From assembly GCA_021648525.1 (NCBI GenBank), contig JAKISP010000040.1:1-36212 (forward strand): a DNA stretch of 36,212 bases, given 5' to 3'. This stretch comes from Gammaproteobacteria bacterium. Its GTDB lineage: Bacteria; Pseudomonadota; Gammaproteobacteria; SZUA-140. The notes below the pieces were generated by a model, which was not told the origin of the DNA, did not search any database, and saw only the letters and a list, made by a program, of their open reading frames with translations. Position numbers and translations under genes: made by a program. Positions within the stretch are counted from its first letter, which is position 1; each line of letters opens with the position of its first letter. Positions 8,212 through 28,602 of this stretch are shown here, in pieces.

Positions 8212-8229
8212 AGGGGCATATGAGCAGTG
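8212..8229 (+). promoter_or_regulatory. ribosome binding site and start choice for cti
   Basis: AGGGG at 8212-8216 sits 10 nt before GTG 8227, the chosen cti start. An ATG at 8220 is nearer to the site but opens only a four-codon frame (MSSD, stop) that overlaps the GTG. It could act as a tiny leader or simply be chance. Confidence 0.4.
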
Positions 8230-11849: not shown

Positions 11850-12997
11850 TGGAGAGTAATAAAGTGGGCTTTAAAACAAAAGAACCGAGTGACTATATTG
11901 ACCAGTTAACCTGGCTGAGAGGCATCGCGGCATTTTTTGTGATAGTTTCACATACAGTACGTGCAACAGAGGTTAAATATGGCTCAAATGATGAAATAAG
12001 CAACTTTCTTCTTATGTCGTTGCTGGATTTGGGCAGTTTTGGGGTGGTACTTTTCTTTGTCCTGAGTGGATGCACATTGTATATAAGCAGCTCGGATAAA
12101 GTCAGGCATAAGGAAATTATAACCTTTTATATAAAGCGTTTTTTTAGAATATGGCCAGCATTCGTTGTTTCCCTGGTTTTATATATTGGTTTTAGTTTTA
12201 TTTTTTCTGCTTTATATATTAACCCACAAGGTCATTGGGTAGAAAAACAGTTTCTATCTCAGGCTTCAATTTATGATGTATTTTCATACTTATCTTTTAC
12301 ATTCAATATTACTGGGCCAGGAGGGCTTTTTAATAATGCCTATTGGAGTTTGCCTGTCGAATTTCAATATTATATTATTTTTCCTGTCATAGTTGCTTCA
12401 CTTAGATATGGTGTTCTTGGGCCAGTAGTTATAGGGGTATCACTATTTTTGTTCCCCAGGCTCGGTTTTTTTGATTTTGATAACAACATTGTATTTACGT
12501 TAGCCTTTAGTTTTTGTGGTGGCGTTTTAGTTGGTTACATATATAAGAAAACAAAATTCCGTATAAAATCTTTTACTGGAATTATTATATTGGCTATTCT
12601 TGTTGGCATTGTTTCAGCTATAACTAATTCCTATATTGTACTGCCTGATATTCCTGTTGTATCTGGAAAATGGAATTGGTATGGGGGTATCGCAATAATT
12701 ACAGTCTTTGTGGCGCTGGTAACAAAAATAAACCTCTACAACAGTATTGAAATGTTCCTTAAGCACTATGGGACAATTTCGTATAGCACGTACCTGTATC
12801 ATAATATTTTTATAGCAATCGCTGTTTTATTTATTATTCATTTCGAAATATATGATAGTAGTTTACGATTATTTATTACCTTCTTTTTTACGTTGATTGC
12901 AAGTTATTTTTGTGCAATCGCATCCTATATGTATATTGAAAAACCCTCTATTGAATTGGGTAGAAGTATCATAAAAAAATATAATAACTTAGGTTAG
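11849..12997 (+). CDS. acyltransferase-3 family membrane protein (OafA-like)
   Basis: A 382-residue integral membrane O-acyltransferase (acyltransferase 3 family), which typically moves acetyl groups from cytosolic acetyl-CoA onto surface polysaccharides. The first helix holds the conserved LTWLRGIAAFFVIVSHTVRA with the catalytic-type His, followed by SFGVVLFFVLSGCTLY and the FYIKRFFRIWPAF arginine-rich loop, all typical of the family. About ten helices follow. The C-terminus is short (EKPSIELGRSIIKKY) with no fused SGNH domain; that activity is supplied by the upstream gene, with which it overlaps by one base. Base composition is strongly AT-rich, suggesting recent acquisition. It is separated from the glycan cluster by mobile-element debris, so a link to that glycan is plausible but unproven. 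Confidence 0.88.
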   Translation: MESNKVGFKTKEPSDYIDQLTWLRGIAAFFVIVSHTVRATEVKYGSNDEISNFLLMSLLDLGSFGVVLFFVLSGCTLYISSSDKVRHKEIITFYIKRFFRIWPAFVVSLVLYIGFSFIFSALYINPQGHWVEKQFLSQASIYDVFSYLSFTFNITGPGGLFNNAYWSLPVEFQYYIIFPVIVASLRYGVLGPVVIGVSLFLFPRLGFFDFDNNIVFTLAFSFCGGVLVGYIYKKTKFRIKSFTGIIILAILVGIVSAITNSYIVLPDIPVVSGKWNWYGGIAIITVFVALVTKINLYNSIEMFLKHYGTISYSTYLYHNIFIAIAVLFIIHFEIYDSSLRLFITFFFTLIASYFCAIASYMYIEKPSIELGRSIIKKYNNLG

Positions 12998-13637: not shown

Positions 13638-13764
13638 ATTATATTCAACCCTTATATATTATATACTTTGTTGTTTTTGTGATGCTCAGGTCTGCATAAA
13701 GTCGTGTGTGGCTATCGACAATGAAAACCTGGGTTGTCATTAGCGTGCTTAATCGGGGGTGGGG

Positions 13765-14583
13765 ATGGGTAGAGATCGTTCGTTTGTATTAGTTGATGCT
13801 CATGTGCATTTTCAGGATTGCTTTAATATGGCTCAATTTTTTCATAGCGCACACAAAAACTTCCAGCAGGCCGCTGATAAACTAGATGGTGAGTATACGG
13901 CTCTTATTATTTTGACTGAGGTCTCTGGGGTGCATTATTTTAGGCAGTTGAAAGAGATGTGTGCTAAGGCTGAGTTAATCCAGGATGATGTTTATGGTAA
14001 CTGGTCATTTCGGGCAACATTAGAAGATTGTTCACTTGAAGTTGTTGGCGATAAAGGGGCGTCATTAATCGTTGTCGCGGGCCGCCAGATAGTGACTAAG
14101 GAAAAGCTAGAGGTGCTTGCTTTATTTTCTGATGAGGAATTCCCTGAAGGTGAGGCGTTGACCGAGACCATTGAAAGAATAAAGGCGGCTGAGGCTCTTC
14201 CTGTTATACCCTGGGGTGTTGGGAAATGGTTAGGTGCGCGTGGAAAGTTATTAGCTAAGTTTATAACATCAGCGGATGCCGACGGTGTTTTTCTTGGGGA
14301 TAATGGTGGACGTCCAACGATGTGGGGAATGCCGAGTCATTTTAAGCAAGGCGAAGAAAAGGGGATGCTGGTATTGCCAGGGACAGACCCATTACCATTG
14401 GCGAAAGAGGTTGAGCGAGTGGGTAGTTTTGGTTTTTTTCAGACAGAAAAACTTGCTTCTGACAGCCCAGCAGCTGAATTAATGGCGAGGCTATTGGCGT
14501 TAAATGCGGTAGTGTCATCATATGGCAGGCTGCGGGCGCCCTTCTCTTTTGTAAAAGATCAGCTTGGAATTCGTTTGAAATAA
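13765..14583 (+). CDS. PHP-like (polymerase/histidinol-phosphatase-type) metal-dependent hydrolase-like protein
   Basis: A 272-residue soluble protein. The N-terminal LVDAHVHFQDCF carries the HxH motif that opens PHP and amidohydrolase-type metal sites. GRQIVTKEKLEVLALF near residues 112-127 resembles the second PHP motif, and LPGTDPLPL near 212 lies where PHP proteins have a GSDaH motif, but here the His is missing, so the metal site may be reduced or altered. WGVGKWLGARG and DGVFLGDNGGRP are distinctive. The start ATG 13765 follows a GGGGGT purine stretch; GTG 13759 is the alternative. As first gene of the glycan cluster, it may be a phosphatase or a sugar-processing enzyme; this is inference. 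I do not recognise a characterised homologue. Confidence 0.55.
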   Translation: MGRDRSFVLVDAHVHFQDCFNMAQFFHSAHKNFQQAADKLDGEYTALIILTEVSGVHYFRQLKEMCAKAELIQDDVYGNWSFRATLEDCSLEVVGDKGASLIVVAGRQIVTKEKLEVLALFSDEEFPEGEALTETIERIKAAEALPVIPWGVGKWLGARGKLLAKFITSADADGVFLGDNGGRPTMWGMPSHFKQGEEKGMLVLPGTDPLPLAKEVERVGSFGFFQTEKLASDSPAAELMARLLALNAVVSSYGRLRAPFSFVKDQLGIRLK

Positions 14584-14661
14584 AGCGTTAACTCTTTATT
14601 GGTTTACGTGACGATCTGTTAGAAATCATTAGAAATTGAATTGAATGTTAGAGGCTATACT

Positions 14662-15828
14662 ATGAAGATTCTTGTAATGGCTCCCCACCCGTTTTACCAG
14701 GAACGAGGGACGCCGATTGCCGTTGACTTACTTTTAAAGGCATTAAGTGAACGAGGTGATGAGGTTGACTTGCTGACCTTTCATGAGGGCAGTGATCGAT
14801 CATATCCAGGCTTAAGGATCGAAAGAATTAAGCCCTGGTTTCCAGTTGGGGCGATAAAACCGGGCTTTTCATTTAAAAAACTTCTTTGTGATGTTCATAT
14901 GATGGCCCGTTTCACCTATTTCATGTTGACCAGAAAATATGATGTTGTACATGCAGTAGAAGAATCTTCTTTCATGGCGCTCATTTTATGCCCATTAAGG
15001 AGGGTGCCTTTTATTGTTGATATTGATTCATCAATGACGACACAGTTGGTCGATAAGTTCTGCTGGTTACGCCGCGTGGAAAAGCCTCTGGCCTTTTTTG
15101 AAAGTTTACCGATTAGATTTGCAGCTGTTGTTGTGCCGGTATGTGATGCGCTAGCTAATGATGTTCGAAAATATCGTACTAAAAACATGGTTGTATTAAA
15201 GGATATATCGCTTGTTCAACCTCATGATGATGCAGAGAGAGGTCAATCCCTGAGGAAAGAGCTTGAGATTGACAGTGATAAAATTATGTTGATGTACATA
15301 GGTAATCTTGAGTCGTATCAGGGGATCGATTTATTGCTCAAAAGCTTTCAGCTTACGCTAGAGACAACGGCGGGTTGTGTTCTGGTTATTATTGGTGGTT
15401 CTGACGCTGATATTGAAAAGTATAAAGGGATTGTTAGCGCCTCAGAGGCTGGTGATAATGTACTGATTGTCGGGCGACGTCCGGTGAAAAATATTGGCCA
15501 GTATATGTCTCAGGCCGACATCCTGGTTTCACCCCGTATTCATGGCGTTAATACACCGATGAAAATCTATAGCTATCTTGACTCCGGAACGGTTGTGTTA
15601 GCCACCCGATTACCAACGCATACACAAGTGATGAGCAGTGAAACTGGTATGTTGTCTGAACCATTGGAACGTGAATTTTCTAATGGGATGTCTGCGCTCA
15701 TTTCTGATGCGCCACTGCGAGCTAAGCTTGCGGAAAACGCAAAGGTTTTTATTGAAAAAGAACACAGCTACGTGGCGTTTAAATCCCGTGTTGATGAAAT
15801 ATATACGTTGGTAGAACCGCGTTTATGA
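14662..15828 (+). CDS. GT4-family glycosyltransferase
   Basis: A 388-residue GT-B retaining glycosyltransferase, likely cytosolic at the inner membrane face and adding a sugar to a lipid-linked glycan. The N-terminal domain opens with MKILVMAPHPFYQERGTPIA, typical of family 4 enzymes with a flexible GTP loop. The C-terminal nucleotide-binding domain starts near MLMYIGNLESYQGIDLLL and contains DILVSPRIHGVNTPMKIYSYL, the donor-binding region. The usual E-x7-E motif is changed here to a HGVNTPMKI form found in a subset of this family. ATG 14662 was preferred to TTG 14641 because GAGG lies 7 nt upstream. The stop overlaps the next start by ATGA. Donor and acceptor cannot be read from sequence. 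Confidence 0.85.
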   Translation: MKILVMAPHPFYQERGTPIAVDLLLKALSERGDEVDLLTFHEGSDRSYPGLRIERIKPWFPVGAIKPGFSFKKLLCDVHMMARFTYFMLTRKYDVVHAVEESSFMALILCPLRRVPFIVDIDSSMTTQLVDKFCWLRRVEKPLAFFESLPIRFAAVVVPVCDALANDVRKYRTKNMVVLKDISLVQPHDDAERGQSLRKELEIDSDKIMLMYIGNLESYQGIDLLLKSFQLTLETTAGCVLVIIGGSDADIEKYKGIVSASEAGDNVLIVGRRPVKNIGQYMSQADILVSPRIHGVNTPMKIYSYLDSGTVVLATRLPTHTQVMSSETGMLSEPLEREFSNGMSALISDAPLRAKLAENAKVFIEKEHSYVAFKSRVDEIYTLVEPRL

Positions 15829-17498
15829 GTGGCCTGGCGGGCACAGATAGTCTGGCTCCCGATACATCGAGTACATATGACATTGTGATTGTCGGCGGTG
15901 GAAGTCACGGTGGCGCGTTAGCCTGGCAGGCATCGCTTAGAGGTTATAAGGTATTGTTGTTAGAGCGAGAGGACTTTGTATGTGCCACTTCGTCAAACAG
16001 TATGAAGATCATTCATGGTGGTGTCCGGTATTTACAGCGACTGGACATTGTACGGCTTCGATTGTCGGTTTTCGAGCGGACAAAATTATTGTCTATTGCG
16101 CCTCATCTGGTTTTTCCACTGAAGTGTGTTATCCCGACGTATAAAAAGCTCTCAAAAAATAAATGGGTGGTAGGTGCTGCATTCAGGTTGTACGATCTAT
16201 TGAGTGCGGGGAGAAACAGAGGGATATCAGAATGCAAACAAATCCCGGATACTCGAACTTTATCAAAGTACGAGCTAAAACAGGCTTTTCCTGGCATAAA
16301 AGATAATGGTTTCACGGGTGGCGCTGTCTGGTATGACGCGACAGTCCGTAGTGCTGAAAGGCTGGTATTATCATACCTTTTTTCAGCTCAGGAACTGGGT
16401 GCCAATATCCTGAATTATACTGCGGTCACTGACATATTGACCGAAGCAGGTCAGGTTGTCGGGGTTGTGGCTATTGACAAGTTTTCACAAAAAGAAGTTC
16501 GAGTGAAATGTGGTCTCGTTGTCGATGCAACTGGGCCCTGGTCATTTTTTAGACAATATTGTGATCAGGCTCGAAAAAAGTGGTATTTCACAAAGGCTGT
16601 TAACATTATCGTTAATCGGCGGCTGGTCGATGATGCGATTGGTTTGACGGTTCCCGCGAGTAAAAATGCAGTGAGTAGAATGTTATTTTTGGCTCCGACA
16701 GAAAATGCGACGGCTATTGGGACCTGGTATTTTCATTGTGAAGGTGGAACCGTTGCTGCGAATGATGTGACTCAGAATGAAATCACGCTGATATTACAAG
16801 ATATTAACAGTGTATTGAGTGGCGTTGTATTGACGCTAAATGACGTGTCTCGTGTTCAGGTGGGGTTGTTACCGATAAAGAGTGGTGAAGCGCCTGTTGG
16901 CGATCCTGATCTAATAAGTGATTCTGAGATTGAAATGGCTGATAAATATGGAGGGCCTGGTGGCCTGGTGTATATTCAGGGAACAAAGTTGACCACGGCG
17001 CTTTCATCGTCAATTCGTTGTTTAGATGTGATTAATGCCAATACAAAAGGGCGCTTTGCAAAGGCTATTCACAGTGAAAAATTGTTTGATTGGCAAACGA
17101 CCGATAAATACGGTGAGTTTTTGTCGGGATGTGAGGTAAAATATAAACACCTTTGGTCGGCGGACACTGTGCGCGAGATCATAGGCTGCCTCGGCACAAA
17201 GATTAAAAGAGTAGCAGCGATTGCTGAGGCGAATATGGAATTGCAGGGCGTTGTCCCGGGCGGGGCGAATATATCGCTCGCCCTGGTTGCGTATATTATT
17301 GAAAATCAACGTGTTTTTACACTCTCTGATTTATTGCTAAGAAGACTCAATGTGGGTGCCTATTCGGTACCAGCGATGGAAACGGTTGAATGTTGTGCTG
17401 ATATGTTAGCGCGACATTCTGGCTGGAGTCAGGCGGTGAGAGCTGAAAATATAAGAGACTTACTGGAGACGTATCCGTCGTGGACAAAGGAAAAATAG
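15825..17498 (+). CDS. FAD-dependent glycerol-3-phosphate dehydrogenase-like oxidoreductase (GlpD/GlpA-like)
   Basis: A 557-residue flavoprotein related to aerobic glycerol-3-phosphate dehydrogenase. The FAD-binding Rossmann motif DIVIVGGGSHGGALAW lies at 19-34, and CATSSNSMKIIHGGVRYLQ (53-71) matches the GTSSRS-KLIHGGVRYLE signature of GlpD. The helical C-terminal domain is present. GlpD oxidises sn-glycerol-3-phosphate to dihydroxyacetone phosphate at the membrane. Placed between a glycosyltransferase and an FkbH/ACP module, it is unlikely to serve simple glycerol catabolism; I infer a dedicated three-carbon-unit oxidation for the glycan. The signature differs from true GlpD at several positions (NSM for RST/SKL), which may reflect another substrate. 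It overlaps its upstream neighbour by 4 bp and its downstream one by 19 bp. Confidence 0.8.
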   Translation: MSGLAGTDSLAPDTSSTYDIVIVGGGSHGGALAWQASLRGYKVLLLEREDFVCATSSNSMKIIHGGVRYLQRLDIVRLRLSVFERTKLLSIAPHLVFPLKCVIPTYKKLSKNKWVVGAAFRLYDLLSAGRNRGISECKQIPDTRTLSKYELKQAFPGIKDNGFTGGAVWYDATVRSAERLVLSYLFSAQELGANILNYTAVTDILTEAGQVVGVVAIDKFSQKEVRVKCGLVVDATGPWSFFRQYCDQARKKWYFTKAVNIIVNRRLVDDAIGLTVPASKNAVSRMLFLAPTENATAIGTWYFHCEGGTVAANDVTQNEITLILQDINSVLSGVVLTLNDVSRVQVGLLPIKSGEAPVGDPDLISDSEIEMADKYGGPGGLVYIQGTKLTTALSSSIRCLDVINANTKGRFAKAIHSEKLFDWQTTDKYGEFLSGCEVKYKHLWSADTVREIIGCLGTKIKRVAAIAEANMELQGVVPGGANISLALVAYIIENQRVFTLSDLLLRRLNVGAYSVPAMETVECCADMLARHSGWSQAVRAENIRDLLETYPSWTKEK

Positions 17499-18469
17499 CA
17501 GTTACTGGCGCAACCGGTTTTTTAGGTTCGCATCTTACTACTCGATTAATTGACGAGGGATATCAAGTTAACATCCTCGCGCGCGATGAGGGTAAAGCTA
17601 AGAAGCTTGCTAATCAAGCTGTGAATATTGTGATTGGCGATATTGCAGATCCTGAAGCGGCAAAGCGCTTGTGTGAGGGGTGCCAATATGTCGTCCATTT
17701 AGTCTCTAATTTTCGAACAGCTTCTGGGCCACCTGAAAGCTATCGTCAGATTAATGTGGATGGTACGAAAAATATCTACAATGCTGCCGCTGATGCTGGG
17801 GCAAGTCGTTTTGTTCATTGCTCTACCATTGGAGTACATGGCAGTGTGAAGGTGAGTCCTGCAACAGAAGAGACTGAGTTTGCGCCTGGAGACCTGTATC
17901 AGGAAACGAAGCTTGAGGCGGAGCAGTATGTGACTGGGCAGGCGGGGAAGACGGCAATGGAACTCGTCGTGGTCAGGCCAACATCAATGTATGGGCCAGG
18001 TGATATGCGCATGCTTAAGATGTTTAAAATGCTTAAAAAAAGAACCTTTTTTAAAGTTGGCCCCTGTCAGGAGAACTTTCATGCGGTTTATATCGACGAT
18101 ATTGTCGACGGTTTTATTAAAGCAATAGAGACGCCAGGAATTGATAAAGAGAAACTATTGATTGGTGGCAGTGATTATCTCCCGCTGGAGGATTATATCG
18201 ATGTTGTTGCTCGGGCGGTTGATGCGCCTCCACCGAGGTTTCGCTTTCCTTATCCGCTATTTTATTATGCTGCAATTGTGTGTGAGAAAATATTTACCCC
18301 GTTTGGTATTGAGCCTCCGTTGCATGTGCGTCGCGTTCGGTTTTTTAAAAATAATCGAGCATTCAATATTGATAAGGCCAGGCGTGTTCTTGGGTATGCG
18401 CCCAAGGTATCACTAGAAGAGGGAATGAAGCGTACTGCAGCCTGGTACAAAGAAAATGGTTACCTTTAA
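17480..18469 (+). CDS. extended SDR NAD(P)-dependent epimerase/dehydratase/reductase
   Basis: A 329-residue extended short-chain dehydrogenase. The nucleotide-binding motif GATGFLG lies at residues 10-16, the catalytic Ser near S115 (HCSTIGVHG), and the YxxxK pair at Y140-K144 (YQETK). RPTSMYGPGDMRMLKMF is the typical substrate-binding loop. Such enzymes epimerise, dehydrate or reduce NDP-sugars, or reduce dihydroflavonol-type ketones; the late sequence (FFKVGPCQENFHAVYIDDIVDGFI) leans toward the latter-type subgroup also common in polysaccharide loci. The start is GTG 17480, inside the upstream gene's last 19 bp, so translation is coupled. Exact reaction unknown. Confidence 0.82.
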   Translation: MDKGKIAVTGATGFLGSHLTTRLIDEGYQVNILARDEGKAKKLANQAVNIVIGDIADPEAAKRLCEGCQYVVHLVSNFRTASGPPESYRQINVDGTKNIYNAAADAGASRFVHCSTIGVHGSVKVSPATEETEFAPGDLYQETKLEAEQYVTGQAGKTAMELVVVRPTSMYGPGDMRMLKMFKMLKKRTFFKVGPCQENFHAVYIDDIVDGFIKAIETPGIDKEKLLIGGSDYLPLEDYIDVVARAVDAPPPRFRFPYPLFYYAAIVCEKIFTPFGIEPPLHVRRVRFFKNNRAFNIDKARRVLGYAPKVSLEEGMKRTAAWYKENGYL

Positions 18470-18475
18470 AGGTAC

Positions 18476-20347
18476 GTGAACTTTATGGACAAAGAGACTA
18501 AAAGAAATATAAAAAGTACGGCGGACTGGAGCTCTTTATATTCAATTATTAAAGAGCTAGATTACACTTTACTCAATACACGAGAGATTGAGTTAGTGAA
18601 TCGACAGATAGCAAAGACACGAGCAAGTTCTGATTTGAAGGTTGCTTATCTGTCTAATCATACGATTGATACTCTGGCACCGTATTTAACTGTTATTTCT
18701 GCTATTCATGGAATAAATATTGAGAGTTATATTGCGCCGTATGATCAGTATTTTCAGGAATTATTATCTGAAACGTCAGGGACTATTTCATTTCAACCAG
18801 ATGTCATTCACCTTGATTTATCTGTCCGAGGGCTTGCGCCACTTATTTGCGAAAAATTTCTTTCATTAGATGATGAGCTAAAGCTCGCAGAGCAAGAGCG
18901 AATTATTTCATTAATATCTCAGCTTGCTAATTTAGCTATTAAGCAAACCAGTGCATATTTGTTAGTATCTAATTTTTTGCAGCCAGCTTATTCCCAGGCT
19001 GGCATAGCTGATTTAAAACAGCAACAAAGTGAAACCGAATGGTATTCACGGCTTAACCTGGCGTTGATTGAAAGCCTGAAAAATAATAACCGTGTTTTCC
19101 TGGTCGATAAAAATAATGCGCTTGCCCGTGTTGGTAAAGAGAATATAACGGATAGTAAGATGCTGTACCTTGCCAAAATGGAACTGAATGATGTGGGGTT
19201 GCAAGCATTAGCAAGTGAATTGAATCGTTACATCATTGCGATCGCGGGAAAAACAAAGAAAAATCTTGTACTGGATCTGGATAATACACTGTGGGGTGGG
19301 GTTGTTGGAGAGGACGGTGTTGATGGCATTAAGGTTGGAAAGGGGTATCCAGAGGGGGAAATTTACTATGCGTTCCAGACTTACATTAAAAATTTAAAAC
19401 AGCGCGGCATTATTCTGACATTGGCGAGTAAAAACAATCTGGAAGATGTCGAAGAGGCTTTTGAAAAGCGAACTGAGATGCCGTTAGGGTTAAGTGATTT
19501 TGCTAGCCGAAGAATTAACTGGAACCCTAAACATACCAATTTGGTATCAATGGCAAAAGGCTTAAGTATTGGAATTGATAGCTTTGTCTTTCTCGATGAT
19601 AACCCGGTGGAGAGAGGGCTAGTAAAAAGCACACTTAAGGAGGTGGTAGTCCCCGACCTCCCTGAAGACCCGAGTACCTATTTGAATATTCTCATGCGCA
19701 GCCCATATTTTGAAAAGCTATTTTTGACAGAAGAAGATGCTAATAAAACCGAGCAATATGCTGCAAATGCTCAGCGTGAAGACACCAGGGAAGAGATTGG
19801 TGATATGAGCGCGTTTCTTAGCAGTCTCGGCACAAAGGTGACTATTGAGACCGCGAAGAAGGAAAATATTCAGCGTGTACATCAGTTATTTAGCAAAACA
19901 AATCAATTTAATGTGACGACAAAACGACATGGTGTTCCTGAAATAGAAAATTTTATCGAGAATGAGGGCTTTGATTTATTCTCGATCTCGGTGACTGACA
20001 ACTTTGGTGATCTGGGGATGATTGGCGTCGTGTTAGTGGAAATGAAAGATGGTATTGCTTATATTGATAGCTTTATTATGAGTTGTCGAGCAATGGGTCG
20101 TGCGATAGAAACGGTGATTATGAATGTGATCAAAGAAAGGTATTTATCAGGTGCTTATGCTAAGCAGCTTGTGGCTGAATATATTCCCACAGCAAAGAAT
20201 GTACCGGTTAAAAGTTTTTTTGATGATCAGGGGTTTGATTTAGTGGAAAAGGGCGACAATGGGAATATGCGTTATGAGCTTAAGTCAAAAGCGAAGGGCG
20301 CAGAGTCATTGGAATGTACTGGTATTGAAATTTACGTTGGAGAGTGA
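18476..20347 (+). CDS. FkbH-like HAD-IIIC protein with C-terminal GNAT-like domain
   Basis: FkbH-type proteins take 1,3-bisphosphoglycerate and load a glyceryl group on the phosphopantetheine arm of an acyl carrier protein, removing phosphate. The 623-residue product has an N-terminal SGNH/alpha-beta-like region (about 1-255), then the HAD core: LVLDLDNTLWGGVVGEDG (DxDxT at 267-271), ASKNN (317-321) and FLDDNP (372-377), then a C-terminal acyltransferase-like domain with TNQFNVTTKR and DNFGDLGMIGVV near 480-520. All catalytic residues look intact. The ACP gene begins 2 bp after its stop, the expected partner. GTG 18476 or ATG 18485 may be the start. In macrolide pathways this gives glyceryl- or methoxymalonyl-ACP; here the glycan context suggests use as a sugar substituent. 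Confidence 0.9.
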   Translation: MNFMDKETKRNIKSTADWSSLYSIIKELDYTLLNTREIELVNRQIAKTRASSDLKVAYLSNHTIDTLAPYLTVISAIHGINIESYIAPYDQYFQELLSETSGTISFQPDVIHLDLSVRGLAPLICEKFLSLDDELKLAEQERIISLISQLANLAIKQTSAYLLVSNFLQPAYSQAGIADLKQQQSETEWYSRLNLALIESLKNNNRVFLVDKNNALARVGKENITDSKMLYLAKMELNDVGLQALASELNRYIIAIAGKTKKNLVLDLDNTLWGGVVGEDGVDGIKVGKGYPEGEIYYAFQTYIKNLKQRGIILTLASKNNLEDVEEAFEKRTEMPLGLSDFASRRINWNPKHTNLVSMAKGLSIGIDSFVFLDDNPVERGLVKSTLKEVVVPDLPEDPSTYLNILMRSPYFEKLFLTEEDANKTEQYAANAQREDTREEIGDMSAFLSSLGTKVTIETAKKENIQRVHQLFSKTNQFNVTTKRHGVPEIENFIENEGFDLFSISVTDNFGDLGMIGVVLVEMKDGIAYIDSFIMSCRAMGRAIETVIMNVIKERYLSGAYAKQLVAEYIPTAKNVPVKSFFDDQGFDLVEKGDNGNMRYELKSKAKGAESLECTGIEIYVGE

Positions 20348-20349
20348 GA

Positions 20350-20577
20350 ATGGATGAGAATCTAGTAGAAGTTGTTTCTGAAGTATTTGGTGTCGATGAA
20401 GATGATATTACCCCGGAAACTAGTCCTGAGAATCTTGATAACTGGGATTCAATGAATCACTTAAAACTGGTAACTGCGATAGAAGAAGAATTTAGCATTA
20501 ACTTATCAATGGATGAGGTTGAAGCGATTGTGGATGTGAAGTCGTTGTCTGATATTGTTAAAAGTCACGCGAAGTAA
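20350..20577 (+). CDS. acyl carrier protein
   Basis: A 75-residue acidic carrier protein. The phosphopantetheine attachment serine is in the NWDSMNHLKLVTAIEEEF segment (DSM in place of the usual DSL), with the LSMDEVEAIVDVKSLSDIV helix after it. The start is ATG 20350, 5 nt after GGAGAG (20339-20344), which lies in the end of the FkbH-like gene. It is surrounded by its likely users: the FkbH-like loader upstream, then a hexapeptide acyltransferase and a MaoC/SDR fusion downstream. It is not next to fab genes, so it is a dedicated rather than the primary fatty-acid ACP. No phosphopantetheinyl transferase gene is present, so activation must come from elsewhere. Confidence 0.93.
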   Translation: MDENLVEVVSEVFGVDEDDITPETSPENLDNWDSMNHLKLVTAIEEEFSINLSMDEVEAIVDVKSLSDIVKSHAK

Positions 20578-20583
20578 TTACTC

Positions 20584-21111
20584 ATGAATCCAGGAAAAAT
20601 CATAAGACGTTTTTTGATTCCAGCACCTCTAACGACGTTGCTGTATTTACTTAAATCTGGCTGTAAGGTGAGTCCTAAATCCGAAGTCGAACTGTCACCA
20701 TTGATTTCAATTGGTAAAGGCACTCAAATAAGTTCTTTTACAAAAATAAAAGCATCTGATGGTGAGTTGACTATCGGTTATGATGTCTCAATTGGAACAA
20801 GTTGTTTTATTTCTGCTGATAAAGGTGGGGTTTCAATTGGAGATCACTGCATGATTGGTTCTAATACAACGATTGTTGGTAATAATTATCGTTATGATTC
20901 GCTTGATACACCGATTTGTCAGCAGGAAAAGACGTCAAAAGGAATCAGTCTTGGTTCGAATGTATGGGTGGGTGCAGGTTGTGTGATTCTTGATGGTGCT
21001 CAGGTCGGTGAAAATGTCATCATTACCCCTAATTCTGTTGTCTCGGGAAAGATTGCACCCAATACCATCGTGCAAGGTAATCCTGCAAAAGTCATTTTCA
21101 CCCGGCGATAG
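20584..21111 (+). CDS. left-handed beta-helix (hexapeptide) acyltransferase
   Basis: A 175-residue transferase of the hexapeptide-repeat family. The repeats run from about residue 40 (ISIGKGTQISSFTKI, LTIGYDVSIGTSCFI, VSIGDHCMIGSNTTIVG) to ISLGSNVWVGAGCVILDGAQVGENVIITPNSVV and the usual end GNPAKVI. These enzymes move acetyl or longer acyl groups from CoA or ACP to sugar hydroxyls or amines. The position between an ACP and a beta-hydroxyacyl-processing fusion suggests that the acyl donor may be the ACP-bound unit; this is inference. A GNNY segment (YDSLDTPI follows) occupies the place of the active-site loop in maltose-O-acetyltransferase-like members, though the usual loop His is not obvious. 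It starts 7 bp after the ACP stop. Confidence 0.85.
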   Translation: MNPGKIIRRFLIPAPLTTLLYLLKSGCKVSPKSEVELSPLISIGKGTQISSFTKIKASDGELTIGYDVSIGTSCFISADKGGVSIGDHCMIGSNTTIVGNNYRYDSLDTPICQQEKTSKGISLGSNVWVGAGCVILDGAQVGENVIITPNSVVSGKIAPNTIVQGNPAKVIFTRR

Positions 21112-21116
21112 CACTT

Positions 21117-22778
21117 GTGACCAGCCCAGAAGAATTTGAATCTACACTTTGCGTTAGTGAGGAGATGATTAATGCATTTGCTTCACTAACAAGTGACGTC
21201 AACTCATTGCACCTGAACGAGGAAGTTGCGCGAACATCCAGATTCCGTACTCGCATTGTGCATGGAATGTTGCCCTTCAGTTTTCTGACTTTTTTAGCCG
21301 AAGAGTTTCCGAAGAAAAATGTACAGTTTACTTCATTTCGAACCCGTTTTTTAAAGCCGATTCATTATGACCAGCAGGTAGTTGTTAAAACTAGATATGC
21401 ACCCGTATCGACAGGTAGTGGTGATGTTGATGGGTTCGAGTTCGAGACTGTGATTTTGAAGCTGCCGCAACAGGAGAAGGTAACGGAGATTAAAGGGGCG
21501 TTTTATACAAGCGCTGCTTCAGAGGGGTTTTTATGCGATCAACACGTGTCAAGTACGGCTAGTTTGTTGGCGAATGAACTGGATGAAGAGAGACATACGC
21601 TGGATTCCCTGGCGGCAGGCGACAAAGATAGCTATGCTTTTCAACTTGATGACCAGAAGCTTAGCTATTTCTTAATGAAAGTGCTCTGCTGTGATGCTGA
21701 TTTTATTGAAGCTAATATACTTCCAGGCACAAATTTGATTGCTTCGTTATTGCTGTCAACTGTTGTTGGAATGAAAATTCCGGGCCGTTATGCGACATTT
21801 TCCAGTTTCAAAATTGACTTTACTCAAGCTGTACCGCTCAATACGCCATGCCATTTACATACTGTTATAAAGCGTATATCCAGGGCCTCAGAGGTTGTTA
21901 AAACAGCCGTCACGATTGAAAGTGGTGGGCAACAACTCGCTGTGGGCAAGATTGAGTCGCTGGTTAATCCACCGCCTGTGAAAATGCTCACATGTAATGA
22001 AATTCTTGATAGTGGTCTGCATGAAATGGGGTTGAGTGGAAAGGTTGCTCTGGTGACTGGCTCGTCCCGTGGAATTGGAGAAACGACTGTTAAATTGTTG
22101 GCAATGCTGGGCTGTAAGGTTGTTGTTACTTATTATCGAGGTAGTAGTGATGCGCAGCTTATTGCAGATGATATTACTGCTGCGGGTGGTGAGGCACTTG
22201 TGTGTCAATGTGATGTTACATCTGAAGCTAGTGTGGCTGAATTATATCGTGTGATTGCAGAGAGGTTTGGTGACGTTGATATCCTGGTTAACAATGCCGT
22301 AAAAGAATTTTCTGCGGCTGATTTAGAGCAGCTAAACTGGGATGATTTTCTCGGTGAGTTAGAAGTTACGCTGAAAGGCGCTCATCTCTGTTGCCAACAT
22401 GCGATACCTGGATTTAAGCGAAATAAAGGTGGCAAGGTGATCAACATTTCGACGATAGCTGTTGCGAACCCGCCGTCGGGGCAAGCAAAGTATATCGCCG
22501 CAAAGAGTGCGCTGGAGGGGTACACTAAAAGTCTTGCTAAAGATCTTGTGAAAAATAATGTACAGGCAAATATTGTGGTTCCGAATATGGCGGAAACTGA
22601 TCTGATCGCTGGGATACCCACCGCATATCGCAGTAAAATTGCGCAGTCTCGCCCTTATGGCCGTCATATAAAACCTGTTGAGGTAGCGCAGAGTATCGCT
22701 TTTCTCGCATCGCCATGGTCGGATGCAATTACTGGTCAAAAAATTGTTCTGAATTTAGGTGAGCCTCCATTTGCTTGA
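21117..22778 (+). CDS. MaoC-like dehydratase / hot-dog / FabG-like SDR fusion protein
   Basis: A 553-residue fusion. Residues 1-150 form a MaoC/R-hydratase hot-dog domain with TSDVNSLHLNEEVAR (catalytic-type D27 and H32) and RIVHGML. Residues 165-300 look like a second hot-dog unit (ILPGTNLIASLL, YATFSSFKIDFTQAVPL) without an obvious catalytic pair. From about 308 a FabG-like short-chain reductase follows: VALVTGSSRGIGE (TGxxxGIG), VNNAVKEF, INISTIA (Ser), and YIAAK (Y459-K463). Together they could hydrate/dehydrate and reduce a beta-oxo or hydroxyacyl group on the ACP. The start GTG 21117 lies 5 bp after the previous stop. No ketosynthase accompanies it, so what it acts upon is open. Fusions of this type in other glycan loci make hydroxyacyl groups for amino sugars. 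Confidence 0.85.
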   Translation: MTSPEEFESTLCVSEEMINAFASLTSDVNSLHLNEEVARTSRFRTRIVHGMLPFSFLTFLAEEFPKKNVQFTSFRTRFLKPIHYDQQVVVKTRYAPVSTGSGDVDGFEFETVILKLPQQEKVTEIKGAFYTSAASEGFLCDQHVSSTASLLANELDEERHTLDSLAAGDKDSYAFQLDDQKLSYFLMKVLCCDADFIEANILPGTNLIASLLLSTVVGMKIPGRYATFSSFKIDFTQAVPLNTPCHLHTVIKRISRASEVVKTAVTIESGGQQLAVGKIESLVNPPPVKMLTCNEILDSGLHEMGLSGKVALVTGSSRGIGETTVKLLAMLGCKVVVTYYRGSSDAQLIADDITAAGGEALVCQCDVTSEASVAELYRVIAERFGDVDILVNNAVKEFSAADLEQLNWDDFLGELEVTLKGAHLCCQHAIPGFKRNKGGKVINISTIAVANPPSGQAKYIAAKSALEGYTKSLAKDLVKNNVQANIVVPNMAETDLIAGIPTAYRSKIAQSRPYGRHIKPVEVAQSIAFLASPWSDAITGQKIVLNLGEPPFA

Positions 22779-22902
22779 TAGACATCTGTTTTTCGATAGT
22801 TGAATTTCGTAGTGGTACGATGATCCTGGCGGGGTGAGACGGCCCTTTATATCGAATGTTTTCAGCTACTATGTGTTGTTATTACTTATTATTGTAAACT
22901 AA
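22779..22902. other. intergenic gap inside the glycan cluster
   Basis: This 124-bp gap is the largest break between the MaoC/SDR gene and the flippase, and probably carries a secondary promoter or nothing. No clear terminator hairpin or ribosome site was seen; the bases just before ATG 22903 are AT-rich. Confidence 0.35.
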
Positions 22903-24402
22903 ATGAAAAGCTATAAATCATTGTTCAGTTCATCGGTAGTTGTCTTTATCGGTTTAGTGGTAAGAATCATTCTGGTAATGCTGTTTGAACTGCTGTGCGC
23001 ACGATATCTTGGCCCTGAGAAATACGGAACATACACGCTTTTATTTACGATTATCGTCATCATATCGACAATCCCAACGTTAGGTTTAATTCAATCGACA
23101 AGGCGTTTTATTGCGCTTTATTATGATCAGAATGAGCATCGTTATGTTAAAGGGATCGTGCGGCTGTGTAATTACTGGACGATTTTTTCTGGTGTGCTAT
23201 TGACCTGTATTGTCTATCTATTAATAACCTTTATTGATACTAGCGCTTACTCAAATGAGGAGTTAATTGCCTTACTCCCGCTCATGTTACTTATCATTCC
23301 ATTTTATGCACACAGGCGGTTAGCCATTTCAGTTTTTAGTGGCTTTAAAAATACGGTGTATAAAGTCATTCTTGAAGATCTGGCAGAGCCTGTTATTAAG
23401 ATACTTGCCATCTCAATTGTGATGATGATTGGTGGTTCGTTAACTGATCTGACATATGTCACCATCATCGGATACATGTTGCTCGGTGTAATATCCTTAA
23501 CGCTTGTAGCCAGGTCGTTAAAAAAGGTTGTTCAAGCTAGTGTTGATATTTCTATGCCATGGAAAGTGTTTATTGGTTTTAGCGGTGCGATGGTTGTGAC
23601 AGAGCTAGTTGAACTGATTCTGACATGGCTGGATATTATTATGTTAGGGATGTTGTCTAGCGATTATCAGGTCGGTCTTTTTCGTGCAGCAACTCAGCCG
23701 GCTATGTTGGCCTCAGTAATTTTAACTAGCTTTGCATTTATCTACATGCCTTTGGCGACTGAACTGTACGGAAGGAAGGAGCCTGTTGAGTGGAAAAACC
23801 TCAATAATCTGATTTCTCTCTGGTCTATGACCCTGGCATTTCCAGTCAGTGTTGTGTGCATAGCATATCCTGATGTAATAATTGGAGTGTTGTTTGGTGA
23901 GCAGTATGTTGATGCTGAAGTGACGCTTAGAATACTTGCTCTTGCATACATATTTCATTCTGCGTGTGGATTTACTGGTTTAAATTTAATTATCGGTGAT
24001 AAATCTACCACTCAAATGAAAGGAAAGTTAATTTCACTTTGTATTCATGTGATATTAAATATCATTCTGATTCCTGACTATGGGGCGAAAGGTGCGGCTA
24101 TTTCTGTATTATTGTCCTTGATATTTTCAAATGCTTACAATCTATACTGGACTAATAAGTATTTCTCTATTCACCCTTTTGAGAAGCGATATTTCAGTCT
24201 GTTAATGCTTAACATTGGGATATCCATTTTTCTATATCTACTGCTGGGGATTTTTGATATCCCGGGTTATCAAAAAGTTATTCTAATGGCGTTATTGCAC
24301 CTTCCATTGCTTGTGTTTATCAGTTTAAAGGTTGGCGTTGTAAAAAAAGAAAATTTCTTAATTATTCTTGAGTGGATTCAGCAGGCAAGGAAATCAAAAT
24401 GA
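22903..24402 (+). CDS. Wzx-like polysaccharide flippase (MOP superfamily)
   Basis: A 499-residue membrane protein with 12-14 hydrophobic helices, of the oligosaccharidyl-lipid/polysaccharide exporter family. It opens with SLFSSSVVVFIGLVVRIILVMLFELLCARYLGPEKYGTYTLLF, the usual first helix pair and GPEKYG(T/L)Y loop of Wzx-type flippases. It continues with repeated helices, including LDIIMLGMLSSDYQVGLFRAA, a conserved mid-protein loop. Such proteins turn undecaprenyl-linked repeat units from the cytosolic to the periplasmic face. Its presence makes a Wzx/Wzy-type or teichoic-like export route likely, although no Wzy polymerase is visible in the window. The stop overlaps the next start by ATGA. 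Confidence 0.88.
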   Translation: MKSYKSLFSSSVVVFIGLVVRIILVMLFELLCARYLGPEKYGTYTLLFTIIVIISTIPTLGLIQSTRRFIALYYDQNEHRYVKGIVRLCNYWTIFSGVLLTCIVYLLITFIDTSAYSNEELIALLPLMLLIIPFYAHRRLAISVFSGFKNTVYKVILEDLAEPVIKILAISIVMMIGGSLTDLTYVTIIGYMLLGVISLTLVARSLKKVVQASVDISMPWKVFIGFSGAMVVTELVELILTWLDIIMLGMLSSDYQVGLFRAATQPAMLASVILTSFAFIYMPLATELYGRKEPVEWKNLNNLISLWSMTLAFPVSVVCIAYPDVIIGVLFGEQYVDAEVTLRILALAYIFHSACGFTGLNLIIGDKSTTQMKGKLISLCIHVILNIILIPDYGAKGAAISVLLSLIFSNAYNLYWTNKYFSIHPFEKRYFSLLMLNIGISIFLYLLLGIFDIPGYQKVILMALLHLPLLVFISLKVGVVKKENFLIILEWIQQARKSK

Positions 24403-25766
24403 ATGGTTGGGCGTATGCATTATTGGGCGATCTTTTCAAGTCATTTAATCATTGTGAATTAGACGTGGTTCTGATGAGAAGCAATGACTGGTTAAATGAT
24501 CTCCCGGTCGGAGATATCGATTTGTTGGTACTGCCTGATCAGCTGAAGCGAATTATGTTGTGTATTGATCGTTTTACGAAAGAAGAAAACTGGCAAAAAA
24601 TATTTGTAGATACGGATTCAAATCATACTCACTTAGTCTATGTGAAATTACACCAGGGTGAATTTCGTTCTGTTCACATAGATTTACAGACATCACTTGG
24701 GCGAAAAGGTTTTTTATACTGCTCATCCTCAGAGGTCATGAGTACGCCAGTTTTGATCGATGGAATTTATGTCCAAAATGAGGCTAATGCCGTTTACTCG
24801 CTTATGCTTCATGTTTTGCTAGATAAGGGGAAAATAAAAGATGAATATAGGCAGCTAATATTAAATGTCGACCCCAACACTCTTGAAGAGCTCTTAGTTG
24901 AGAGGTTAGATGGTCATATGGCGGTACTGATTATGAACTGGGTGTCGAATGGGTTGTCAGATGAGAATATGTCGGAAGTTTGTAGCGCGACCAGGAAGTT
25001 TCTGGTCTTGAGGTACCCTATGAACAGGGTATTTCCGCTTGTCCATAAGGTGTGTCGAGTCTCCCGGTATTTTGCACGGAGACGGGGTGTTCTTATTGCG
25101 GCTTTAGGCCCGGATGGGGCGGGTAAAAGCACGGTGGTAGAAAAAGTAGATAAGATGTTAGCATTTGGCGCTTTTCCTGTTGCAACGGTTTATATGGGGA
25201 AAAGAGAAACACTACTACCAACAAGTAAATTGATACGCCTTTATTATGATTATAAAGAGAAAAAAACAAAGGGTAAAAATGGCGAGCCTGTGTCGTCAGC
25301 CGTGATTCAGGAATTAACGGAAGACAAGCCTCGTAGTGCGAAAAAAAACTGGATTGCCTGTGTGAAAGAAGCGTTAGGATTATCTAACTGGTTTTTAGAG
25401 CAATGGGCTAGATACTTGATTGATATCAGGCCAGTCATGCAGCAAGGTGGTGTGGTGCTTTGTGATCGATATATTTATGATCTGGCCGATCGATCCAGAC
25501 GTAGCATTGTTTATTCAAAATCATTTGCATGGTTCCTTAAGGTTTTTTTTCCAACGCCAGATATTACCTATTTTTACTGGGAAGAACCCGAGGTGCTTTA
25601 TGAGCGGAAAATGGAAAACACGGTAGAGCGCAGTGCTTTTTTGATAGCGAACTATCGTGCTATCTTGAGTAACATCCCTAATGTGATTGAGGTCAGGACT
25701 AATATTGATGCAGATGAAATTTGTATTGATGTGACGGACCGTATTGTCACTACAATGGAAATTTGA
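24399..25766 (+). CDS. nucleotidyltransferase-like plus thymidylate-kinase-like P-loop fusion
   Basis: A 455-residue protein of two parts. Residues 1-220 contain VLMRSNDWLNDLPVGDIDLLVLP (about 24-46); the GDIDLLV pattern resembles the paired acidic residues of the nucleotidyltransferase (Pol beta) fold, with an HIDLQ third acidic segment. Residues 230-455 hold a Walker A loop GPDGAGKSTV (about 237-246), a CDRYIYDLADR segment (the DRY motif of thymidylate kinases) and the late YRAILSNIP. Such kinases phosphorylate nucleotides, but those in glycan clusters are thought to phosphorylate sugars or polyols. A true start at ATG 24399 overlaps the flippase stop. I do not know a characterised enzyme with this layout. 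It is followed by another kinase-fold protein. Confidence 0.65.
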   Translation: MNGWAYALLGDLFKSFNHCELDVVLMRSNDWLNDLPVGDIDLLVLPDQLKRIMLCIDRFTKEENWQKIFVDTDSNHTHLVYVKLHQGEFRSVHIDLQTSLGRKGFLYCSSSEVMSTPVLIDGIYVQNEANAVYSLMLHVLLDKGKIKDEYRQLILNVDPNTLEELLVERLDGHMAVLIMNWVSNGLSDENMSEVCSATRKFLVLRYPMNRVFPLVHKVCRVSRYFARRRGVLIAALGPDGAGKSTVVEKVDKMLAFGAFPVATVYMGKRETLLPTSKLIRLYYDYKEKKTKGKNGEPVSSAVIQELTEDKPRSAKKNWIACVKEALGLSNWFLEQWARYLIDIRPVMQQGGVVLCDRYIYDLADRSRRSIVYSKSFAWFLKVFFPTPDITYFYWEEPEVLYERKMENTVERSAFLIANYRAILSNIPNVIEVRTNIDADEICIDVTDRIVTTMEI

Positions 25767-25771
25767 TCCGC

Positions 25772-27247
25772 ATGTTACAGCAATCAGCCTGGCGTATTTT
25801 TTTTCCCGGTCAGCAAAATCTGGCGATTGGTTTTTGTGGTGATAAAAGTAGAGCTGAATTTGAGTCTTCTTTAAAGGCATTAGCGCTTAGTCATGATGTT
25901 CGTGAGCAAACATCGGTCGATTTACTTTTTTGTTCGGAACAAGTTTCTGGTGGGCTAGCTCGGCAATTAGATGAATATCTGCCGATGTTGAAAAATAGTG
26001 GTATTTTGTTTTACCTTTCACATAGTGTGTCTGAGAATAATGCGACTGTGACTGAAATGAAGCACCGTGGTCTCTCTGTGATTGCGAACCTGACAGTAGA
26101 AGGTGAGGTGCTTTACGATGATAACTGTAAATGGATTACGCTTATTCCCAGAACAGGAAAGTTAGACTATGTGAAGCGAGTGTTAGCTGAGTGTGGCCTG
26201 TTATCGTTGAATGGTAATAAGAAAATGCAGCTTGCCATATTTTCTTATACAGATTCTGTTAGCTGGTTATCTGCGCTTATTGATGAACTTGGTCGGCTGG
26301 ATTATCTTAGTAAACCTGTAGCGGTTGGCCGTATTGATAAGATGCGGACTGGCAATGTTGTTGTACAGTTGATTGATAATGATGGGGTCAGATTTGCGAT
26401 TAAAGTATTAAATGAGGAAGGTGAAACGGATGGCGAGGCTGGAATTTATCCGTGGCTAGATAAAGTGATTGAACGGCCGGATTCACCACCTGAAATCAGT
26501 TCTACTATTCCAGGGGTCTTTGTTTCTACTGATTTTCAGGGAGCCTCTTTTCAACTGGAACCATGGATGAGTGGCAAGCCTGCCTCCCTGTTTTTTTATA
26601 ATGGAAAATATAGAGAGGTAATCATTGATCGTGCTATTAACTGGTCTGTGAAGTTTCTCAATACCACACGTAGTGATGATGGGCCACTGGTTATTGATGC
26701 TGGTTACATTAGGTCGGTCATGCGAGATTTTATTGCTAAATCAGGCAGGGCTGATACTCTCTCGACTAAAGTGATTGATTATATTTCAAAAAACCTGTCA
26801 TTACATGACTGTCCGGTTGTTAGTTGTCATGGTGATTTCTGGATAGCCAATATATTAGTGGATGAAAATTACCGCATTACGGGTGTAGTTGACTGGGAGT
26901 TTGCAGAAGAGAAAACTTTCCCGTTGATTGATGTGTTTCATTTGATTTTTCATCGGAAAACGGTTTTCAGCTCTTTTCAGCCATGGAAGGAGTTAGAGAA
27001 TGTTTTTCGAGGGAAGATGAGCGCTGCTAATCGTAAAAGAATAGCGAAGTGTTTGCAGCAGCTAAATATTGATGCCGCGTTGTTTTCATCCCTATTGCTA
27101 CTGTACTGGGTTAAATACCTGGATACCAGGATGACAATGATGGAGGTGAATGCTGGTTGGTATGAGGCTGCTTTTTTGGGTATTTACGAGCTGTTAGATA
27201 AGCAATCTGCTGCAGACTGGGATAGCCTGTGCAATAACCTGAGGTGA
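25772..27247 (+). CDS. APH-fold phosphotransferase with uncharacterised N-terminal region
   Basis: A 491-residue protein. The C-terminal half (from about 165) has the aminoglycoside-phosphotransferase/choline-kinase fold: a lysine-containing RFAIKVL strand (about 210), the catalytic CHGDFWIANILVDENYRITG (near 350-369; HGD-x4-N), and GVVDWEFAEE with the metal-binding Asp. The first 160 residues (GFCGDKSRAEFESSLKALAL...LLFCSEQVSGGLARQLDEYLP) resemble no domain I can name, possibly a degenerate methyltransferase or sugar-binding fold. APH-fold kinases phosphorylate small alcohols such as choline or sugars. Together with the thymidylate-kinase-like gene next to it, a phosphorylated sugar or polyol intermediate is likely. 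It starts at ATG 25772; the TTG at 25763 overlaps the previous stop. Confidence 0.68.
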   Translation: MLQQSAWRIFFPGQQNLAIGFCGDKSRAEFESSLKALALSHDVREQTSVDLLFCSEQVSGGLARQLDEYLPMLKNSGILFYLSHSVSENNATVTEMKHRGLSVIANLTVEGEVLYDDNCKWITLIPRTGKLDYVKRVLAECGLLSLNGNKKMQLAIFSYTDSVSWLSALIDELGRLDYLSKPVAVGRIDKMRTGNVVVQLIDNDGVRFAIKVLNEEGETDGEAGIYPWLDKVIERPDSPPEISSTIPGVFVSTDFQGASFQLEPWMSGKPASLFFYNGKYREVIIDRAINWSVKFLNTTRSDDGPLVIDAGYIRSVMRDFIAKSGRADTLSTKVIDYISKNLSLHDCPVVSCHGDFWIANILVDENYRITGVVDWEFAEEKTFPLIDVFHLIFHRKTVFSSFQPWKELENVFRGKMSAANRKRIAKCLQQLNIDAALFSSLLLLYWVKYLDTRMTMMEVNAGWYEAAFLGIYELLDKQSAADWDSLCNNLR

Positions 27248-27498
27248 TTTTTGAGTTGTTTGATCTGCTAAGATAAGATGTAGTGGATCAGTTTATTCTG
27301 GTCATTTTAACTGTTGGCATTGGGTTCTGTATGGCAGTGTATGATTGTTATGCTCTGGAAATTATGGTCAGGTTTTTTGCTTGACGTTAGCATTGTACTG
27401 GCGTTATTTGAATAGATTATTGGGCGAAACCAGACATTTCGTAGAAATGTCGATGGTTTCATTATGCTGAAAGCTGGCGAGTATGAATAGGTCATAGT

Positions 27499-28602
27499 AT
27501 GAAAATAGCATTAATGCTACGTAATTTGGGTCAGAAAGGAGGCATAAACGTATACACGATCAATGTTGTATCGAATTTATTGCGTCTGGATCAACGGAAT
27601 GAATATTTAATTTTATATAAGGACAAGGAGCAGTTAGGCGCCTTTAGTCAATATGATAATGCTAAAGAGTATCACCTGGATGCCCCAAATAAACTGCTAT
27701 GGGATCAGGTTGTTGTGCCGCGGTTTTTATCTAGAGAAGGGGTTGATCTGGTTTTTAACCCTAAGCATACGGTGCCTGTGCTGGGTGGGTGTAAAAAAAC
27801 GATGGTGATCCATGGTGCCGAACAGCTAGAAATTACGAGTGCATTTCCTTTTGTCAATCGTATCTATACTGCGTTAACGATGCCTTTTTATGCGCGGCGT
27901 TCAACTCTTGTTATTACTACGACACAAACGGGTGTTGATGATCTCTCCCGGCATCTAAAAATGCCGAAAGAAAAATTTCGTTTTTTTTATGAAGGTGCGC
28001 ATGAGCGCTTTAAGAAAATAGCGCCTGAAGTGAGCCTTCCTGTCTGTAATGCACTTGGATTGCCGGAAAAATTCATATTATTTGTTGGTGGACTGACGCC
28101 TATAAAGAACTTTGGTCGAATTGTAGAAGCTTATTCTTCTCTTATTCAAAAGCATGATTATACCCTTGTTGTGGTGGGCTTTAACCGATTTAAATTTGAG
28201 CGTGAGGTGGCAACTGCCTCTGAGTTAGTTAAGGATAACAAAATTGTTTTTACCGGGTTTGTACCAGATGAAGATCTGCCTGCTTTGTATAATCAGGCGG
28301 AATTGTTAATATTTCCTTCTCTATATGAAGGGTTTGGCCTGCCTGCGTTGGAGGCAATGTCATGTGGTTGCCCGGTGGTAACATCAACAAAAGGTTGCAC
28401 TAAAGAGGTGACTGGTGATGCGGCTATACTGGTTGACCCATATGATCCCAATGATATTTGTAATGGCATGGCGCGCGTAATTGAGAACCCTGATCTTAGG
28501 GCGAATATGGTTGAGTTGGGTTTAAAAAGGTCTAAAAAATTCAGTTGGGAGAAGGCTGCGCAGGAACTCCTGGCGTTGTTTGATGAAATGGACGCCGGTT
28601 AG
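27499..28602 (+). CDS. GT4-family glycosyltransferase
   Basis: A 367-residue GT-B enzyme. The N-terminus (MKIALMLRNLGQKGGINVYTINVV) is the usual acceptor-side glycine-rich loop, KNFGRIVEAY follows at about 200, and the nucleotide-binding motif LIFPSLYEGFGLPALEAMSCGCPVV (near 272-296) with E-x7-E in EGFGLPALE is intact, so it should be an active retaining glycosyltransferase. It differs from the first GT4 of the cluster, which lacks that motif. A 251-bp gap precedes it, so it may have its own promoter, although it shares the strand and likely purpose of the cluster. Donor sugar cannot be predicted. Confidence 0.88.
   Translation: MKIALMLRNLGQKGGINVYTINVVSNLLRLDQRNEYLILYKDKEQLGAFSQYDNAKEYHLDAPNKLLWDQVVVPRFLSREGVDLVFNPKHTVPVLGGCKKTMVIHGAEQLEITSAFPFVNRIYTALTMPFYARRSTLVITTTQTGVDDLSRHLKMPKEKFRFFYEGAHERFKKIAPEVSLPVCNALGLPEKFILFVGGLTPIKNFGRIVEAYSSLIQKHDYTLVVVGFNRFKFEREVATASELVKDNKIVFTGFVPDEDLPALYNQAELLIFPSLYEGFGLPALEAMSCGCPVVTSTKGCTKEVTGDAAILVDPYDPNDICNGMARVIENPDLRANMVELGLKRSKKFSWEKAAQELLALFDEMDAG

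Follow-up and report, generated by a model that had tools for sequence, protein, structure and literature searches.

What does an FkbH protein make when it is encoded among genes for a surface glycan? The question is raised by contig JAKISP010000040.1 (GCA_021648525.1, Gammaproteobacteria bacterium, SZUA-140), whose full 36,212 nt are here called the window. A same-strand run at 13759-28602 (+ strand, as are all its genes given below) encodes, in order, a PHP-like protein, a GT4 glycosyltransferase, a GlpD-like flavoenzyme, an extended short-chain dehydrogenase/reductase (SDR), FkbH, an acyl carrier protein (ACP), a left-handed beta-helix (LbH) protein, a MaoC-SDR fusion, a Wzx-like flippase, a P-loop kinase-like protein, an APH-fold protein and a second GT4. 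From gene content and conserved motifs, we propose that this operon assembles a three-carbon hydroxyacyl group on the ACP and places it on a surface glycan, by a route that would lead from glyceryl through pyruvyl to lactyl-ACP; we rate this proposal at about even.

An FkbH-carrier pair in a surface-glycan operon

Gene families were assigned by Pfam and NCBIfam profile matches, which support the gene set named in the original prediction: all members are present and open on the + strand, with operon-like spacing. From the first GT4 gene (14641) through MaoC-SDR (22778), neighbouring genes overlap or are 5-6 bases apart, with wider gaps (124 and 251 bases) further on. The order is not due to chance: it is repeated at ~90-93% protein identity on a second contig, QIKQ01000321 (locus L011 = G177:C58; a gammaproteobacterial metagenome-assembled genome, SZUA-41).

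FkbH (18476-20347) scored 292 bits against TIGR01686 (3.8e-87; cut-off 146.65) and matched FkbH_N (5e-8); its HAD motifs are kept, and Cys537 of the SCR motif is invariant in all 16 FkbHs aligned. It is single copy in the source genome (3.36 Mb, 99.9% complete). The dedicated ACP (20344-20577; PP-binding PF00550, 4e-8; serine in WDSMNH), one of six carrier-domain matches in that genome, scored 189 and 181 against FkbH-linked ACPs versus 107 against the genome's own AcpP. FkbH is predicted to load glyceryl from 1,3-bisphosphoglycerate (1,3-BPG) onto this ACP with dephosphorylation, and a carrier-bound three-carbon unit, as first suggested, is still the best reading of the pair.

Profile scans of the proteins in the run detected no ketosynthase, O-methyltransferase or acyl-CoA dehydrogenase, the first two absences having been noted earlier. 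A tetronate operon was rejected, as FabH-like ketosynthase, E2-like acyltransferase and Agg5-like hydrolase are not in the run; so was a methoxymalonate operon, for which an FkbK/FkbI-type dehydrogenase pair with an O-methyltransferase was not found, nor an acyl-CoA dehydrogenase. The lack of a ketosynthase in the operon also makes a longer chain unlikely here. The ACP might nevertheless bear a longer hydroxyacyl chain primed by FkbH, with ketosynthases encoded elsewhere: in Flavobacterium psychrophilum an ACP, ketosynthases, a reductase and a PglD-type transferase set such a precedent for O-polysaccharide (PMC6519341), and a ketosynthase III lies near FkbH at three loci (L012, L045 and L177). 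As the ketosynthase kinds queried are also missing from most FkbH-MaoC/SDR loci, we consider this decidedly unlikely.

MaoC-SDR fusions are concentrated beside FkbH

The gene following LbH, which starts 5 bases after its end, encodes a MaoC hot-dog dehydratase fused to an SDR ketoreductase (21117-22778; MaoC PF01575, 2e-17; adh_short_C2 PF13561, 1e-49), and includes a second hot-dog stretch. In 23 of 23 FkbH-linked fusions, MaoC retains its catalytic Asp and His, and the SDR its Ser-Tyr-Lys. Among 54 standalone FkbH loci with at least 2 kb of flank on each side, an ACP was found within 7 kb in 40 and a same-strand MaoC-SDR fusion in 18, proportions that are not unbiased since the loci sampled were the best-scoring FkbH matches. 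The fusion was found in 1 of 7 polyketide synthase loci and in 17 of 47 other contexts (P=0.40), the polyketide loci being too few for any claim.

Across 30 FkbH genomes (126 Mb), a MaoC profile gave 57 matches, 29 of them within 7 kb of FkbH versus 0.34 expected; this enrichment of roughly 80-fold is inflated because the profile came from FkbH-linked fusions, a bias that is unlikely to explain it. With the three profile-building genomes and one near-copy left out (G000, G177, G339 and G140), 25 of 53 matches were still beside FkbH. A tree of 59 FkbH proteins implies 18 changes in the presence of MaoC-SDR, and supported branches force no fewer than 16 of them. A single-origin clade of FkbH with MaoC-SDR was rejected on these changes and on clustering no greater than with shuffled labels. 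Scattered over the tree as they are, the changes suit an optional tailoring step that was gained and lost repeatedly.

These figures bear on whether glyceryl itself goes to the sugar and MaoC-SDR serves some separate purpose, for instance the synthesis of a 3-hydroxyacyl group. Glyceryl loading is the described FkbH reaction (PMC7489565), one locus (L041) has FkbH, ACP and LbH alone, and a genome of the same family (G007, locus L040) shows the same operon order minus MaoC-SDR, which was found neither beside its FkbH nor elsewhere in that genome. Against this stand the enrichment, the repeated gain and loss beside FkbH, and the position of the fusion within the same closely spaced run; we hold it to be unlikely for the window. 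The G007 operon, having the same order without the fusion, is predicted to be a natural glyceryl variant. Of the glyceryl or related hydroxyacyl group first envisaged, the three-carbon hydroxyacyl part is supported, and the recurrent MaoC-SDR points beyond glyceryl, most simply to lactyl.

Elsewhere, too, the cassette is found in glycan-related surroundings: at L170 with dTDP-rhamnose genes, a sulfotransferase and a hexapeptide transferase, at L043 with flagellar rod/hook genes, at L049 with a GT4, a cytidylyltransferase and a polysaccharide deacetylase, at L150 with a membrane-bound O-acyltransferase (MBOAT), and at L092, on a Niveispirillum plasmid, with a WcbI-family protein. At L045, MaoC, radical SAM, FkbH, ACP and ketosynthase III lie in a single run, possibly an FkbH-primed chain-building variant. 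Among the genomes sampled, FkbH was present in 25 of 369 for the class and in 48 of 397 for the phylum. It lies, usually with an ACP, near an MBOAT at L091, L046, L090, L144, L150, L151, L158, L163, L166, L167 and L176, Sinorhizobium meliloti pSymB being included; such a pairing resembles a DltB/DltC-like system, in which a group bound to a carrier is transferred across the membrane.

A proposed route to lactyl-ACP

In the first step of the proposed pathway, for which family knowledge and motifs speak, FkbH would dephosphorylate D-1,3-bisphosphoglycerate, hold the glyceryl group on Cys537 and hand it over to the dedicated ACP. The substrates of MaoC enzymes are 3-hydroxyacyl thioesters. Glyceryl belongs to the 3-hydroxyacyl groups and, since the operon has no ketosynthase, is the obvious C3-hydroxyacyl substrate. 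The MaoC domain would thus dehydrate glyceryl-ACP (C2-H, C3-OH) to enol-pyruvyl-ACP, which would tautomerise to pyruvyl-ACP, and the fused FabG-like SDR would reduce this to lactyl-ACP. Loading of D-lactyl-ACP from 1,3-BPG is, we presume, of the bryostatin type. A pathway tool lists an FkbH loading-module reaction of 1,3-BPG and ACP to D-lactate-ACP (PMC7901079). As in lactyl-forming loading, a dehydratase and a ketoreductase with catalytic residues kept accompany FkbH and a carrier in the window.

The SDR might instead oxidise glyceryl-ACP to a tartronyl or hydroxymalonyl-type group. The dehydrogenases of methoxymalonyl-ACP pathways belong to other families than this SDR. Those pathways do oxidise glyceryl-ACP twice by dehydrogenases (PMC7489565), yet the profile scans found neither the acyl-CoA dehydrogenase nor the O-methyltransferase in the run, and MaoC would be left unexplained, so that such an oxidation appears improbable.

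In the final step of the lactyl route, LbH or another transferase would move lactyl to a sugar, in a unit built by the two GT4s and flipped by the Wzx-like protein. This step is the weakest, because LbH (20584-21111; acyltransferase-like, Hexapep PF00132, 2.5e-15) has hexapeptide repeats but, in alignments to Protein Data Bank (PDB) structures, a Tyr (NNYRYD) at the catalytic His of the maltose O-acetyltransferase type; its relatives at L011, L040, L041 and L102 have the same Tyr. With this His missing and the L102 relative occurring in a genome without detected FkbH, the link of LbH to the ACP is tentative, and LbH may work by a different mechanism or draw on a different donor. As no aminotransferase was found in the run, our guess is a hydroxyl as the more likely acceptor.

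A reading of the operon as two modules

The FkbH search of genome contigs returned only two relatives. By the search, the genome of the L011 contig falls in another family of the class; the same-family genomes are mostly without the operon, and together with the 90-93% protein identity this hints at a recent transfer. In G007, PHP-like, GT4, GlpD-like, extended SDR, FkbH, ACP and LbH genes follow in the same order.

Parts of the operon also occur apart. The PHP-like, GT4 and GlpD-like genes are present at L102-L104, in genomes (G192, G212 and G076) with no FkbH match, L102 having in addition the extended SDR and LbH, and L041 has FkbH, ACP and LbH without the PHP or GlpD genes. At L041 a mini-operon consists of LPG_synthase_TM, LbH, ACP, FkbH and asparagine synthase, and L102 has the same outer genes around the GlpD module. 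We read the cluster as two separate modules, FkbH-ACP-(MaoC-SDR) and PHP-GT4-GlpD-like, with FkbH-ACP as an addition to the latter, since at L102-L104 the GlpD-like gene belongs to a set able to do without FkbH. A search for the same neighbourhood in other genomes, which the original prediction had asked for, thus gave a divided answer: the exact full set is local, and the FkbH-ACP-MaoC/SDR core is more widespread than had been supposed.

The second module, comprising the PHP-like protein, GT4, GlpD-like protein and extended SDR, would work on the glycan itself and not on the ACP-bound unit. It opens with an orphan conserved protein (13759-14583), PHP/amidohydrolase-like by its DAHVHF motif alone, whose family is present at L040, L102-L104 and L106, where GT4 and GlpD-like genes often come next, and shares the motifs DAHVHF, GRQIVT.E.LEV, PWG.GKW.G.RG and G[TS]DPLP; searches of Pfam and NCBIfam and a PDB profile search gave no match. 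The GT4 (14641-15828; PF00534, 9e-20) adjoins the PHP or GlpD genes at L040 and L102-L104. The extended SDR (17480-18469; HpnA/OleD-like; Epimerase PF01370, 5e-39), found also at L040 and L102, has HpnA TIGR03466 as its best NCBIfam match (1.5e-52), far under the cut-off of that model.

The GlpD-like flavoenzyme departs from glycerol-3-phosphate dehydrogenases

The GlpD-like protein (15825-17498; DAO PF01266, 3e-39; DAO_C PF16901, 8e-8) scored 173 bits, below the 352-bit cut-off of the NCBIfam equivalog PRK13369. Six module members were aligned to E. coli GlpD (2qcu), streptococcal GlpO (2rgh) and Bacillus GlpD (3da1), with which the window protein shares the fold family, the FAD motif, HGG.RYL and Lys354 (E. 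coli GlpD numbering). They differ at His233, Arg317 and Arg332, which we take to be glycerol-3-phosphate active-site residues of the E. coli enzyme: His233 is replaced by Asn and Arg317 by Leu in 6 of 6, the window protein, with Asp, and those of L011, L103 and L104 have lost Arg332 (4 of 6), which L040 and L102 retain, and the GTTD motif is altered in the subfamily. From these changes we infer a substrate other than glycerol 3-phosphate; a housekeeping role is conceivable, as the genome has no other DAO_C protein.

It had been suggested that this enzyme could process a glycerol-phosphate precursor; on this view it would supply the three-carbon unit from glycerol 3-phosphate. It is encoded just upstream, is the sole DAO_C protein of the genome, and co-occurs with FkbH at L040. 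This idea was not borne out and was rejected on both genomic context and active-site residues: the PHP-GT4-GlpD set occurs without FkbH in G192, G212 and G076, the His233 and Arg317 equivalents are gone subfamily-wide, and FkbH is described as drawing on glycolytic 1,3-BPG. The GlpD-like protein probably does not feed FkbH, and we give the opposite view hardly any credence. When plasmids were searched by tblastn with the MaoC-SDR fusion and the GlpD-like protein, most hits were generic SDRs and GlpDs.

Several of the observations above, and some further ones, weigh against the lactyl proposal. Many FkbH loci have no MaoC-SDR, and the MaoC profile, built from FkbH-adjacent fusions, leans to that class. 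The substrate of MaoC-SDR could be a fatty-acyl or CoA compound instead, and LbH lacks the acetyltransferase His and has its L102 relative in a genome without detected FkbH. The functions at all these loci are, moreover, those predicted from sequence.

Downstream and neighbouring genes

The remainder of the run fits a glycan cluster, confirming the glycosyltransferase flanks, flippase and two kinase-fold proteins described earlier. It comprises the Wzx-like flippase (22903-24402; PF01943, 8.7e-18), a P-loop kinase-like protein, unassigned in its N-terminal part and thymidylate-kinase-like in its C-terminal part (24372-25766; PF02223, 2.3e-5, 24.6 bits, below the 27-bit cut-off), an APH-fold phosphotransferase (25763-27247; PF01636, 1e-8) and the second GT4 (27499-28602; PF00534, 5e-36). 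A flippase thus occurs with glycosyltransferases, as in a Wzx/Wzy-type cluster; no Wzy polymerase was noticed in the run, no search aimed at Wzy having been made.

Outside the run, a GDSL/SGNH hydrolase gene overlaps an acyltransferase-3 gene (11133-12997) where G+C is low (0.32-0.37); the two resemble an acylation pair that was acquired and now adjoins the glycan genes. A full-length fatty acid cis/trans isomerase (CTI) is encoded at 8227-10644 (884 bits). A secreted-looking protein of 1517 aa (29579-34132) carries three LamG-like domains, a GDSL domain, TSP3 repeats and near-identical internal duplications, and an open-ended frame (34547-36211) with a TSP3-like start and, by eye, beta-propeller-phytase-like sequence runs off the contig.

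Discussion

ACP-built acyl groups for surface glycans and FkbH loading are both of known kinds, and the FkbH-MaoC/SDR combination is new as their variant. D-lactyl-ACP polyketide loading (PMC7901079) likewise has an FkbH and a carrier, on which a unit derived from 1,3-BPG is dehydrated and ketoreduced, whereas the window proteins are free-standing, have a MaoC-type dehydratase-SDR fusion and lie among glycan genes without a polyketide synthase. Tetronate (glycerate-utilisation) operons, which form glyceryl-ACP, as with tetromadurin mad7/mad8 (PMC7489565), share a stand-alone FkbH and ACP, but the window lacks their FabH-like, E2-like acyltransferase and Agg5-like dehydratase genes, and tetronate-type FkbHs (L093 and L175) belong to a different clade and are without MaoC-SDR. 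In F. psychrophilum, a route with wfp genes was proposed for 3,5-dihydroxyhexanoyl on Qui2NAc4N of the O-antigen (PMC6519341); a glycan-specific ACP, a reductase and a PglD-type (hexapeptide) transferase, all predicted, are the likeness, and ketosynthases there versus FkbH here the difference. The gene cj1302 of the Campylobacter jejuni flagellar glycan locus (PMC7099621) is, by its description, another case of an fkbH domain in a surface glycan locus. The open-licence literature on FkbH with O-antigen or polysaccharide gave no such pathway within the part covered.

A wider reading, which we offer tentatively and as a whole at somewhat below an even chance, is that FkbH-ACP-MaoC/SDR would be a widespread, repeatedly exchanged and undescribed system of glycan lactylation from 1,3-BPG in Pseudomonadota, with LbH, WcbI, MBOAT and further transferases placing lactyl on lipopolysaccharide, flagellar and extracellular glycans, and that PHP-GT4-GlpD-like would be another, unknown system of sugar modification, its flavoenzyme acting on a new substrate. 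The GlpD-like subfamily cautions against annotating such genes as glycerol-3-phosphate dehydrogenase. The operons of G000 (with MaoC-SDR) and G007 (without it) form a natural experiment. If the proposal is true, lactyl or glyceryl substituents of bacterial glycans would have a testable and direct origin in a glycolytic intermediate, needing neither free lactate nor a CoA ligase, and many FkbH genes annotated only as 'HAD-IIIC family phosphatase' could be interpreted as genes for glycan decoration and not as stray polyketide genes.

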